Shown here: piece after piece, positions 9,867 through 37,977 of the stretch | Layout of the letters: every line of letters begins with the position of its first letter | Position numbering within the stretch: position 1 is the stretch's first letter | Origin: Candidatus Bandiella woodruffii | Lineage (GTDB): Bacteria > Pseudomonadota > Alphaproteobacteria > Rickettsiales > Midichloriaceae | DNA: 64,000 nt | Assembly (NCBI RefSeq): GCF_034359465.1 | Contig: NZ_CP110820.1 | Span: 736,501-800,500, forward strand | Reading direction: 5' to 3' | Position numbers and translations under genes: made by a program | Notes under the pieces: model-generated | What the model saw: only the letters and a program-made list of their open reading frames with translations | Told to the model about the DNA's origin: nothing | Databases searched by the model: none

Positions 9867-11055
9867 AAGATAAAATAAGGATAAATGTGATGGTTTGATT
9901 TAAGGAAGTTTGGACCATGGTCTAAAAAAATTAACAAAAAACTGGTTTCCCCAAGAATTCAAAAGATTTCTTTGAGGTGGGATATGGTAATTTTTAGCTT
10001 TTTATTGATTCTGCGAAGCGTGATTTTATGAGCTTAGGCAGTAAGAACCGTTAAACGTTTTAAATTAAAGCAGATAGCATTCATAAATTCAGCAAACTGA
10101 TTTTTGGCAATTCCTATGTATCGCAATCGTTTATTATCTTGAGAAAACACCCTCTCAAACGGAGCCCTTATGGAAGTATAGTATCGATCAAGGTCAAAAT
10201 TCTTTTGCTTCATATTGTTTTTCTTGATGGCGCAAAAATGAATACCTCTGCTTTTAGCTGCATTCTTTGCTGGTGCAACACAATACCCTTTGTCAGCATA
10301 AACTGCTCCACTATTTGGTAAAACATGCGCAACTCCCTTTGCATCGGTAACATTAGCAGGCGTTATAGCAACCTTGTTGATCATTCCGGATTGAATATCT
10401 ACGCTTACATGTTTTTCTTATAGCCATACCAAAATTTACTACCACCCTTGCACCCTATTTTGGCTTGTTTATCATGTGCGACTTTAGGCAAGACTTCGTT
10501 GTTAAGTTTTTCATATTTTTGTTTTCTGGCTTCATCCCGCTCTTCCCATAAATTAGCTTTGGAGATCAAGTGACTTGCATCAACAAAAGTAAATACCTCG
10601 CTCATATATCCTTGAGATTTTAGTTGATCTCTAAAAATGGCAAAGATTTTTGATAACAAATTTGTTCCTATCTTTGAGCGGATTCTACTAAAAACGCTAT
10701 AATCAGGTGTGGCTTCGGTTAAATCAAAATCACAAAACCACTTGGCTGCAACACTGTCACTCAAATATCTTTCTAGTTCACGATCTGACAAATCTTCCAT
10801 AAACTGTAACAACAAGCATTTAAATAAACGTAAAACACCATATCCCTTATAATTAGCAGGAGATTCAATTCCCTTCAGCTCTTGCTCTGCTGCCCCAAAA
10901 TTAAACAGCTCCTTAAATTTGCGATATTGATGCTCACTACCAACCAATTGATCCAAACATACCATTATTATTTGATGCGCTGATGACATTTTTCTCTTCT
11001 TTATTCTGTAATCCACTCCACTATACCTTTCTTTATTCCATCTTGCAACACTCCC
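9856..11055 (-). mobile_element. Second IS5-type element (about 1200 bp)
   Basis: Ends are imperfect inverted repeats: GGGAGCGTTGAAAGATAAAA on the left and GGGAGTGTTGCAAGATGGAA read inward from the right. It contains one transposase in two frames on the minus strand. Flanking bases do not show a clear duplication. A solo left end is at 7308-7354 and a right-end fragment with transposase N-terminus at 30009-30274. Confidence 0.8.
10034..11016 (-). pseudogene. IS5-family transposase, frameshifted
   Basis: First frame (10405-11016) begins MDYRIKKRKMSSAHQIIMVC and carries the N-terminal domain (YRKFKELF, LSDRELERYLSDSVAAKWFC) and first catalytic region FTFVDASHLIS, ending just after WYGYKKN. The second frame (10034-10384) supplies INKVAITPANVTDAKG, VYADKGYCV and the Y-R-E-K region YYTSIRAPFERVFSQDNKRLRY. 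The join is at an A5 run (near 10415); removing two A's would give the usual YGYKKHVSVD. Probably inactive, unless frameshifting rescues it. Confidence 0.8.
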
Positions 11056-11232
11056 TTTTAGTATACCTCTCGTAAATCAAGAGTTGATGAAATTTATAAA
11101 CGACAGAGAACTTGGAAAAGAGCGAGGAATACGAGTGATGAGCATGAGGAACGTACAAAAGTACGTGACGAAATGCGAAGTCCGAAGTATGACGACGCCA
11201 ATTTTTCAAGTTATCGGAGTATACACTGAGCG
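11056..11232 (+). repeat. Intergenic repeat, copy A
   Basis: About 175 bp from AGTATACCTCTCGTAAATCA to CAAGTTATCGGAGTATACAC. It aligns along its length with 18606-18853 and, inverted, with 37804-37977 and 30402-30560. Contains the conserved segment reading M-T-T-P-I-F-Q-V-I-G-V-Y outward (rightward). The IS5-type element abuts it directly on the left. Confidence 0.75.
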
Positions 11233-11500
11233 GACACAAAGTGTGGTAAACCCACATGAGCAACGAGCGAAGTGGTAACAAATTTAAAGCTATCGAGCTA
11301 TAGACAGAAAAAAGACAAATCTGAGAGAGTTTTGGGGAGCATTTTACTACCTTGGATTATCTTGCCAACTTTTTTCACCAGTCCCCTGAACAGATCCCAC
11401 TGCATAATATAAAAATCGACCTCTAGTGATAAAATTTACCCCCTTTTTCAGAAAACTCACATCAGAACACAAATTAAATTCATGACTTTTGACGGAGGGA
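11233..11500. other. Intergenic region, no gene seen
   Basis: Lies between the intergenic repeat and the pheT stop codon. No convincing frame, RNA or repeat was recognised. Confidence 0.5.
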
Positions 11501-18605: not shown

Positions 18606-18853
18606 TCTGATATAACTCTAGTAAATCAAGAGGTTTGGCGAATTTATAGACGACAAAGTACTTGGAAAAAAGCGAGGAATACGAGTGATGAGCATGAGGG
18701 ACGCACTATTTGTTATTTGTATACTCAAAGTATTTTAAGAATTGGCAAGGAATTGAGTGCCGAGCGTGAGGAGCGTACAAAATTACGTGATAAAATGTGA
18801 AGTCCGAAGTATTTTGAGGCCAATTTTCCAAGTTATCGGAGTATATATATGCA
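18606..18853 (+). repeat. Intergenic repeat, copy B (longest)
   Basis: Fills the gap between the convergent symporter and PAP2 genes. Matches copy A over both halves but carries about 70 extra bases in the middle (near 18700-18770) containing a second, partly duplicated GAGTG/GAGCGTGAGGA segment. The terminal coding-like segment reads R-P-I-F-Q-V-I-G-V-Y without the methionine (ATG to TTG). Confidence 0.7.
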
Positions 18854-30275: not shown

Positions 30276-30380
30276 ACGATAAAAACAAGCGCAGATTCCT
30301 GGTAAAGCACGTAGACGATTCAGTGTTCGCCGAAATGGAAATATCGGATTTGAAAGAAGTGTTAAGCTATTTAGGTTGAT
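30276..30380 (+). pseudogene. C-terminal remnant, possibly of a VirB4/TraC-type ATPase
   Basis: A frame with no start reads DKNKRRFLVKHVDDSVFAEM and ends EISDLKEVLSYLG-stop. The pattern F-x-x-K-x-x-x-D-S-V-x-x-E-M resembles the very end of VirB4-like conjugation ATPases as I remember them. Begins right at an IS end, so the rest of the gene is gone. Family assignment is tentative. Confidence 0.3.
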
Positions 30381-30401: not shown

Positions 30402-30560
30402 AGGTATACTCTCCATCTTTTAAAAGTTGGTATCGTCATTTTTGCGTTCTCGCATTTCGTCACTTACTATTTGTACGCTTCTTCACATTTGTCACTCATA
30501 TCCCCTGCTCTTTTCAAAGTTATCTGTCTTCTATAAATCCACCAATTCTTAATTTGACTT
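30402..30560 (-). repeat. Intergenic repeat, copy E
   Basis: Inverted relative to copy A and more diverged. Carries the short frame M-T-I-P-T-F-K-R-W-R-V-Y reading towards lower coordinates. Its other end overlaps the last seven codons of ygfZ (S-T-P-K-S-N-stop). Confidence 0.6.
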
Positions 30561-31328
30561 GGGTGTAGAATTATTTTTGATCAACGCGAGGGCTGTTTTG
30601 TTGTATTTTTTTAATATTAGCCCCACTTTTTTTGAGTCTTGAAAAAGCTCCCTGTCTTTGATTACAAAGTTTTGCAAAGAAATGTTAGAAAGCTGTTTTT
30701 TATTTGTGCCTCTGTAATTCATTCTGGCTGTAACTTCTTGTCCGATGTAACAGCCTTTTTGAAAGCTTATGGCATTTAACTTGTCCATACCAAGCTCCAG
30801 CGCCCAAAACTCACCAGGCATGAAGTCTACCCCGAATTCTGGGACTAAAAATACCAATCTCTTCTCTTCATATAACCCTAATAAATCGCTATTCATTGTA
30901 AAAGTAGTCAGTTCTGACGTATTAGCTGTATATCCCCTAAAGCCTAAATTTATGTTTCTGGGATCGGGATAAAAGCTTTGGGTTAGTCTATCGTTGCTAA
31001 TGTAAACGCTGATTTCTGGCTGAAGCGCAATATCAATATTTGAATGCAGCTTATGCATGTACAACCTCTTAATGATTTCTTCTGCATAAGCCTTGTTGCA
31101 ATCTAAACAAATGTCTCCTTGTAACTTAAAGACAAAAAAGTCGTACAACACTTTTCCTTGAGGTGACAGAAGAAGGCTATATTGTAACTCATCAGGTTTT
31201 AGTTTCTCAATGTCATTTGATAGCAGGTTTTGTAAAAACTTATTCTGATCTCTGCCAGATAGTTTTATTATGCCCCTATGTTTTAAATCGCTGTATACTC
31301 CGCTAACTTGCAAAGTTGGTGTCCTCAT
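30549..31328 (-). CDS. ygfZ: YgfZ/GcvT-domain folate-binding protein
   Basis: Folate-dependent protein that supports repair or assembly of certain Fe-S enzymes. The 259-residue product has RGIIKLSGRDQNKFLQNLLSND near residue 18 and the diagnostic motif KGCYIGQEVTARMNYRG near 190. The usual YgfZ N-terminus would start close to the YSDLKHRGI segment; the first 12 codons (MRTPTLQVSGVY) instead match the intergenic repeat reading frame, and no other ATG is available between. The end of the gene likewise lies in a second repeat copy. Both ends appear to have been supplied by repeats. Confidence 0.88.
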   Translation of the reverse strand: MRTPTLQVSGVYSDLKHRGIIKLSGRDQNKFLQNLLSNDIEKLKPDELQYSLLLSPQGKVLYDFFVFKLQGDICLDCNKAYAEEIIKRLYMHKLHSNIDIALQPEISVYISNDRLTQSFYPDPRNINLGFRGYTANTSELTTFTMNSDLLGLYEEKRLVFLVPEFGVDFMPGEFWALELGMDKLNAISFQKGCYIGQEVTARMNYRGTNKKQLSNISLQNFVIKDRELFQDSKKVGLILKKYNKTALALIKNNSTPKSN

Positions 31329-31420
31329 TTTTTCGCCCTCGAATTCATTTTATATTTCTTTTTACATTAATCATATCCTGCACTCAATTCCTTGCCACTT
31401 ATTCATATGGACTATCATAA
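31290..31420 (-). repeat. Intergenic repeat, copy F
   Basis: Diverged, inverted copy. TGTATACTCCGCTAACTTGC at its left end corresponds to the end of copies A-C; it provides the start codon of ygfZ. Shares the CACTCAATTCCTTG segment with the middle of copy B. Confidence 0.6.
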
Positions 31421-34499: not shown

Positions 34500-34625
34500 A
34501 TGAAAGATATTAGCTCTGAAATATACAAGAGATTAGAGAAGCTAGAAGTTGAGAATGAGGAGTTGAAAGCGGAGAACAAAGCATTAAGAAGACCACTGCG
34601 TAATATATATACTTCGTTAATTTGA
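34500..34625 (+). CDS. Short coiled-coil frame, probably a gene remnant
   Basis: A 41-codon frame, MKDISSEIYKRLEKLEVENE followed by ELKAENKALRR, is a perfect leucine-zipper-like heptad pattern. Similar zippers open several transposases (for example IS66-type) and small regulators. The frame runs into intergenic repeat D, which supplies its last codons and stop. Not assigned. Confidence 0.3.
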   Translation: MKDISSEIYKRLEKLEVENEELKAENKALRRPLRNIYTSLI

Positions 34626-34675
34626 AAAATTGGCGTAGTCATACTTCGGATTCCGCATAACATTTAGGTATAGTC
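34604..34675 (-). repeat. Intergenic repeat, copy D (partial)
   Basis: About 70 bp, inverted relative to copy A; reads M-T-T-P-I-F-Q-I-N-E-V-Y leftward. Starts three bases after the nuoB stop. Confidence 0.65.
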
Positions 34676-34677
34676 TT

Positions 34678-35232
34678 TCACAAAGATGTAGTTCTTTTTA
34701 TCTTGCGCTGAAGTATCAAAAGGCCGTATAAAAGCGCCTCTGCAGTTGGAGGACATCCTGGCACATATACGTCAACAGGTACTATCCTATCACAACCTCT
34801 AACAACAGAATAAGAATAATGATAGTATCCACCACCATTAGCACAACTTCCCATCGATAAAACCCACCTTGGTTCTGGCATCTGGTCATAAACTTTTCTT
34901 AAAGCCCCAGCCATTTTATTGGTCAGAGTTCCAGCCACTATCATCACATCCGACTGACGTGGACTTGGTCTAAAAAGCATCCCAAACTTATCCATGTCAT
35001 ACCGACTTGAAGCAGTATGCATCATTTCAACTGCGCAACAAGCAAGACCAAACGTCATCGGCCATAATGAACCAGCTCTGGCCCATTTAACTAAATCGTC
35101 TAGCTTTGTAGTCACAAAGCCCTTGTTGTTAACGTCTTGAATAGCGTGTTTCAACAAAGCATCTTGCTCTTCATTTAGCTTGTTAACATCGCACGAATTA
35201 CTTATTCCCATTCTAACGCGCCTTTTTTCCAC
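34678..35232 (-). CDS. nuoB: NADH-quinone oxidoreductase subunit B
   Basis: Peripheral subunit of complex I carrying Fe-S cluster N2. In 184 residues the four cluster cysteines are visible: [10 protein letters not shown] (tandem CC), [16 protein letters not shown] and [14 protein letters not shown]. Its start overlaps nuoA by 31 bases. nuoC, the usual next gene, is absent: repeat D, a small frame and an IS6 copy follow. Confidence 0.96.
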
Positions 35233-37803: not shown

Positions 37804-37977
37804 GTATATATACTCCGAGCACTTGAAAAGTTGGCGTCGTCATACTTCGGATTTCGCATAACGTTTAGGTACATATGTACGTGCCTCATGCTCATCGTTT
37901 GTATTCCTAACTATTTTCCAAGTTCTCTGTCGTTTATAAATTTGTCAATCCTTGATTTACTCTAGAGGTATATGGTG
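37804..37977 (-). repeat. Intergenic repeat, copy C
   Basis: Inverted relative to copy A and close to it in sequence. Carries M-T-T-P-T-F-Q-V-L-G-V-Y reading leftward. Lies between IS6 fragment 8 and the typA promoter. Confidence 0.75.

Follow-up and report, generated by a model that had tools for sequence, protein, structure and literature searches.

The ygfZ gene of Candidatus Bandiella woodruffii very probably (we put the probability at about 0.87) had its start and its stop taken over by two copies of a palindromic repeat element, through insertion, use of an ATG inside the element and a CAA-to-TAA change. We analysed a window of 64,000 nucleotides, to which all coordinates refer unless they are marked as genome coordinates. 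An earlier note, made from the letters alone, had proposed that ygfZ begins and ends inside two copies of an intergenic repeat. Both matches proved to lie far above shuffled controls, and the stretch concerned (30402-31420) fits two copies, at 30405-30567 and 31294-31416. The repeat family is likewise real, although "intergenic" does not describe it: it is a palindromic element of mobile type that also lies inside genes. The features at ygfZ are:

30405..30567, minus strand: 3' element copy, coding T P K S N and the YgfZ stop
30549..30551, minus strand: TAA stop of ygfZ, at a CAA (Gln) of the element open frame
30549..31328, minus strand: ygfZ open reading frame, 259 aa, with an intact folate-binding YgfZ domain and KGCYIGQE
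31294..31416, minus strand: 5' element copy, degraded, holding the ygfZ start and coding residues 1-10
31326..31328, minus strand: ATG start codon of ygfZ, where the element has its conserved ATG (AAAAATGACGATGCC / AGTATGACGACGCC)
31337..31340, minus strand: GAGG, Shine-Dalgarno-like, 8 nt before ATG 31328
31416..31418, minus strand: ATG directly adjoining the 5' copy on its left, separated from ygfZ by in-frame stops

We searched the genome with a repeat query from window positions 11041-11280 and obtained about 50 matches. Alignment of 29 copies defined a 162-nt element (TATACCTCTAGTAAATCAAG...CAAGTTATCGGAGTATA), and the matches to the ygfZ 3' copy revealed a shorter, 126-nt form (TATACTCAAAGTATTTTAAG...GACGCAGAGTATA). 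The family is thus a genome-wide palindromic repeat with forms of ~162 and ~126 nt and dozens of full-length and fragmentary copies. Within the 221 kb examined, models of the long and short forms picked up 88 copies or fragments, and a covariance model run on the complete genome gave 80 matches; in a few of these it matched the opposite strand of a palindromic copy already counted. The element ends are TATAC...GTATA (also given as TATACCTC/TATACTC), with terminal inverted repeats TATACTC...GAGTATA, and each consensus folds as a single long hairpin (-44 to -45 kcal/mol). Like bacterial miniature elements (MITEs), the family is short, is present in many copies, does not code for a transposase and has terminal inverted repeats, TA ends and a hairpin. 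TATA stands at both flanks of the element, where the element ends and a duplicated target look alike unless an empty site is at hand. Neighbouring copies have a terminal TATA in common (genome C1 817885-817888 and 473319-473322), which suggests that copies inserted into each other's ends at a TA or TATA target. Further copies in the window are:

11062..11223, plus strand: intact 162-nt copy, which served as the query
18611..18726, plus strand: element copy, left part
18725..18845, plus strand: element copy adjoining the 18611..18726 copy
34608..34686, minus strand: element fragment at the nuoB 3' end
37809..37972, minus strand: full-length element copy

The nuoB gene stops at the edge of its element fragment (34608-35232, minus strand). 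A literature search that reached few subscription papers returned no description of the family, and for palindromic repeats in Midichloriaceae it gave a single paper, on Rickettsia felis.

We built the profile models for both flanks of ygfZ without either of the ygfZ copies, so the similarity result is not circular. The 5' copy resembles the 126-nt form in its left part and the 162-nt form at its right end. The short-form model matched it at 31403-31295 with 31.3 bits (E 3.4e-8), compared with a best score of 13.8 bits in 1000 dinucleotide shuffles of this flank. The long-form model alone gave 16.9 bits, and the covariance model recovered the copy at full length (31416-31294) with an E value of only 0.0096 genome-wide. 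In the 3' copy the left half resembles the 162-nt form and the right half the 126-nt form. Here the long-form model gave an nhmmer E value of 2.3e-16, and the short-form model scored 60.0 bits against a best of 6.9 in 1000 dinucleotide shuffles.

Upstream of the ygfZ start, the reading frame is closed by stops at 31373, 31364 and 31352. Between the last of these and the domain the only usable starts are ATG 31328 and TTG 31313, both within the element, and the next ATG, GTG or TTG is at residue 60, inside the YgfZ domain; the earlier statement that no other start lies nearer to the domain is borne out. We infer that translation starts at the element ATG at 31328, with M/RTPTLQVSGVYSDLK as the predicted N-terminal peptide. 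The GAGG motif presumably acts as the ribosome-binding site. The 126-nt consensus reads GAGAGC at this site, and one A-to-G change yields GAGG. One may speculate that the ATG at 31416..31418 is a relic of the ancestral ygfZ start. A promoter scan upstream of ygfZ gave no more matches than shuffled sequences do.

The element enters the 3' end of ygfZ at the third base of S254 (30567). The tail TPKSN(stop)EL aligns codon by codon with the element frame IPLVNQEL, and the stop falls on codon 6 of the element open frame, which is CAA in the consensus and TAA here. The element frame read at the N-terminus of YgfZ is the same as that read at the C-terminus. In all, the element codes residues 1-10 and 255-259 of the protein. 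The note had assigned the first 12 codons to the repeat; the head is indeed in the element frame, although the copy extends only over residues 1-10 and two bases of codon 11. Its description of the other end was accurate, as a second copy of the same orientation contributes five complete codons (T P K S N) and the TAA. No empty site could be reconstructed at the 3' end, as the right flank looks rearranged and has no stop within several codons. On the plus strand at 30280-30379, an open frame ending in FLVKHVDDSVFAEMEISDLKEVLSYLG and a stop resembles the 3' end of a broken gene beside IS remnants, and for this reason the region 3' of ygfZ seems rearranged.

We compared the protein with its homologues. 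YgfZ had a match in 32 of the 34 genomes searched, and the closest relatives (L003, L004 and L005) are 50-54% identical, or 50-53% when measured over the alignment. These begin with M-N-I-N-K-L or similar where residue 10 aligns, five residues before the L15 column. Across 20 relatives the nearest Met precedes this column by a median of 5 and a maximum of 11 residues, compared with 14 here. At the other end, the three closest relatives finish with ...ALALLRVAD or ...ALALIKSE, about five residues earlier than YgfZ here, and extend 3-4 residues beyond the ALAL block, compared with 9 here; this C-terminal comparison rests on three close relatives of one genus because distant homologues have a longer C-terminal part anyway. 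The element was not detected in two of the closest relatives' genomes (G017 and G009), and the third (G020) has one copy elsewhere. Homologues in genomes with no detected copy, such as G017 and G009, thus differ from YgfZ here in their N- and C-terminal residues, contrary to what would be expected if these residues were ancestral. Together with the lack of alternative starts, the absence of the end residues from relatives supports the proposal that the repeat supplied a new start and a new stop, initiation at the ATG being the conditional part of it. The element is patchy in the bacterial family, with copies in 9 of 23 genomes by the covariance model. One relative (G004) has 25-33 copies (e.g. 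C83:2909-3068), many of which match the left and right ends and not the middle, and probably represent another form of the element. A scan of genome contigs with YgfZ returned only distant homologues (best ~26-35% identical). Since all relatives have diverged too far in DNA to reveal an empty site, the insertion junctions at ygfZ were placed from protein alignments.

The assignment to YgfZ is supported by TIGR03317 (74.9 bits, above cut-off), and residues 14-96 correspond to a GCV_T domain. The head reads MRTPTLQVSG and the tail ...STPKSN. An AlphaFold model based on 16 sequences has a mean pLDDT of 87, with values <50 at residues 2-6 and 255-259; its first strand starts at residue 11 and its last ends at 251. 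In this model the element-coded residues coincide with the disordered ends and the fold between them is confident, so that the additions are predicted to be compatible with the fold of the host protein. Judged from its sequence, the open reading frame appears not to be decaying: it retains the KGCYIGQE motif and is about as similar to outgroups as its relatives are.

Three other explanations have to be weighed. The element could lie only in the 5' untranslated region, with initiation downstream at a rare ATA (31271 or 31268) and the head not made. Relatives do have only ~5 residues ahead of the conserved L/R block, and rare ATA codons occur at residues 20-21. However, ATA starts are very rare, and such a start would delete the conserved L15..R18 (R18 is invariant) together with the strand at 11-14, and the GAGG motif stands 8 nt upstream of ATG 31328. 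We regard initiation at ATA as very unlikely. It is slightly less credible again that ygfZ is a pseudogene in early decay, with element-derived ends that happen to form an open frame. Insertion did disrupt the start region and repeats occur throughout the window, but the frame runs for 259 aa free of stops, keeps the KGC..GQE motif, lies about as far from outgroups as its relatives do and has a confidently predicted fold, all of which argues against decay.

That the likeness of the ygfZ ends to the repeat is mere coincidence in AT-rich DNA hardly deserves belief: the weak long-form score of the 5' copy would fit it, but the short-form scores of both copies far exceed those of the shuffles, and the end of the match coincides exactly with the GGAGTATA terminus. 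Takeover of both gene ends by element copies is the reading that we retain. A small, non-autonomous, MITE-like palindromic element would have spread in the genome, probably inserting at TA or TATA, and one copy would have landed at each end of ygfZ, the two sharing orientation and element reading frame. The 5' copy would have displaced or destroyed the old start, leaving translation to begin at the element-conserved ATG, and a GAGG motif that arose inside this copy may help initiation. The old stop would have been lost to the 3' copy, in whose open frame a C-to-T change (CAA to TAA) would have made a new one. The outcome would be a YgfZ with a 10-residue head and a tail of 5-6 residues, both predicted to be disordered and presumably tolerated because they lie outside the YgfZ fold. 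We infer this order of insertion events, as well as the TA target.

The same family occurs in frame in other conserved protein genes. A probable RatA/Coq10-like protein (L220, genome C1 511806-511252) has ~35-38 extra residues (...KELSGRHEERKKECATERDGVKRAMPAFKKRVVY...) at about 75-112, which are missing in 8 of 8 aligned relatives and match the element copy at 840807-840944. Within the copy its frame seems to shift, by which the element stop is avoided. In a probable SufD (L212, genome C1 288379-289632), the tail at 386-417 matches ~20 element copies at 58-73% in translation; the alignment of SufD from G009 ends at residue 383, before this tail. SdhE and LpxB form one open reading frame (L036, genome C1 816377-817873) with a 36-residue tail that is the 126-nt form in frame from its first base to the stop, and the LpxB end YTQSILRIGKELSAEHEERIKVRDEMRERKNDDANF is element frame 0. 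A GltP-like transporter also has an element-coded C-terminal tail, which ends ...YTSDNSKRVRNMSDEHEGV. AtpC, TadA and TsaE stop within a few codons after entry into an antisense copy. The names RatA, SufD and GltP are our reading of the sequences, and those of SdhE, LpxB, AtpC, the TadA-like deaminase, TsaE and NuoB rest on Pfam. Among the copies examined, only at ygfZ does the element clearly supply a start. We rejected an M16 peptidase frame (694894; MTSISS...), a CCDC90-like frame (211089; MHYKAF...) and the GltP-like gene (MKLSF...) as further cases, each having a normal Met downstream of the element.

Elements of this kind are already known, as Rickettsia palindromic elements (RPEs) and as ERIC units at protein termini; what appears to be new is the family described here. 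In-frame RPE insertions occur in proteins of Rickettsia (Ogata 2000, 2002, as summarised in PMC10969869 and PMC2229807). As far as these summaries describe them, RPEs share with our family a length of ~100-160 nt, a palindromic hairpin, many copies, a Rickettsiales host and open frames in frame with conserved proteins (here RatA, SufD, LpxB and YgfZ). The comparison is one of features, and, unlike RPEs, the copies here lie in many cases at protein ends and one supplies the ygfZ start. The comparison with RPEs made in the note thus holds at the level of the family, with the in-frame RatA copy and the SufD, LpxB and GltP-like tails. The ERIC/RU repeat units of enterobacteria are fused to protein ends (Delihas 2007, PMC2759123). 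In that account, RU-1 removed the stop at the 3' end of the amidase ECA3499 and a point mutation in the repeat created another, just as we propose for the 3' end of ygfZ, and RU-2, an N-terminal case, resembles residues 4-35 of WbbJ. These units differ from our family in sequence and host, and no case at both ends of one gene appears in the available part of the source (PMC2759123). RUP and Correia/NEMIS are bacterial MITEs with TA ends (PMC2229807), to which the family is likened by its structure: terminal inverted repeats with TA, a non-autonomous nature and a hairpin.

A wider reading is tentative, and we give it rather less than an even chance: that a palindromic element family of Rickettsiales type, present outside Rickettsia, reshapes the ends of core proteins in general. 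Insertion at TA would often bring copies to stop codons (TAA/TAG) and start regions, the conserved in-frame ATG would offer a ready-made start, and selfish DNA would have overtaken both the start and the stop of ygfZ. To our knowledge, it is chiefly in Rickettsia that palindromic elements have been described in frame within conserved proteins. Automated annotation calls for caution here, since the gene calls at such ends derive from the repeat. The ygfZ gene would be a clean case of a mobile element replacing the start codon of a core gene, and with a second family there is a further genome for asking if insertions of this sort are favoured or only tolerated by chance.
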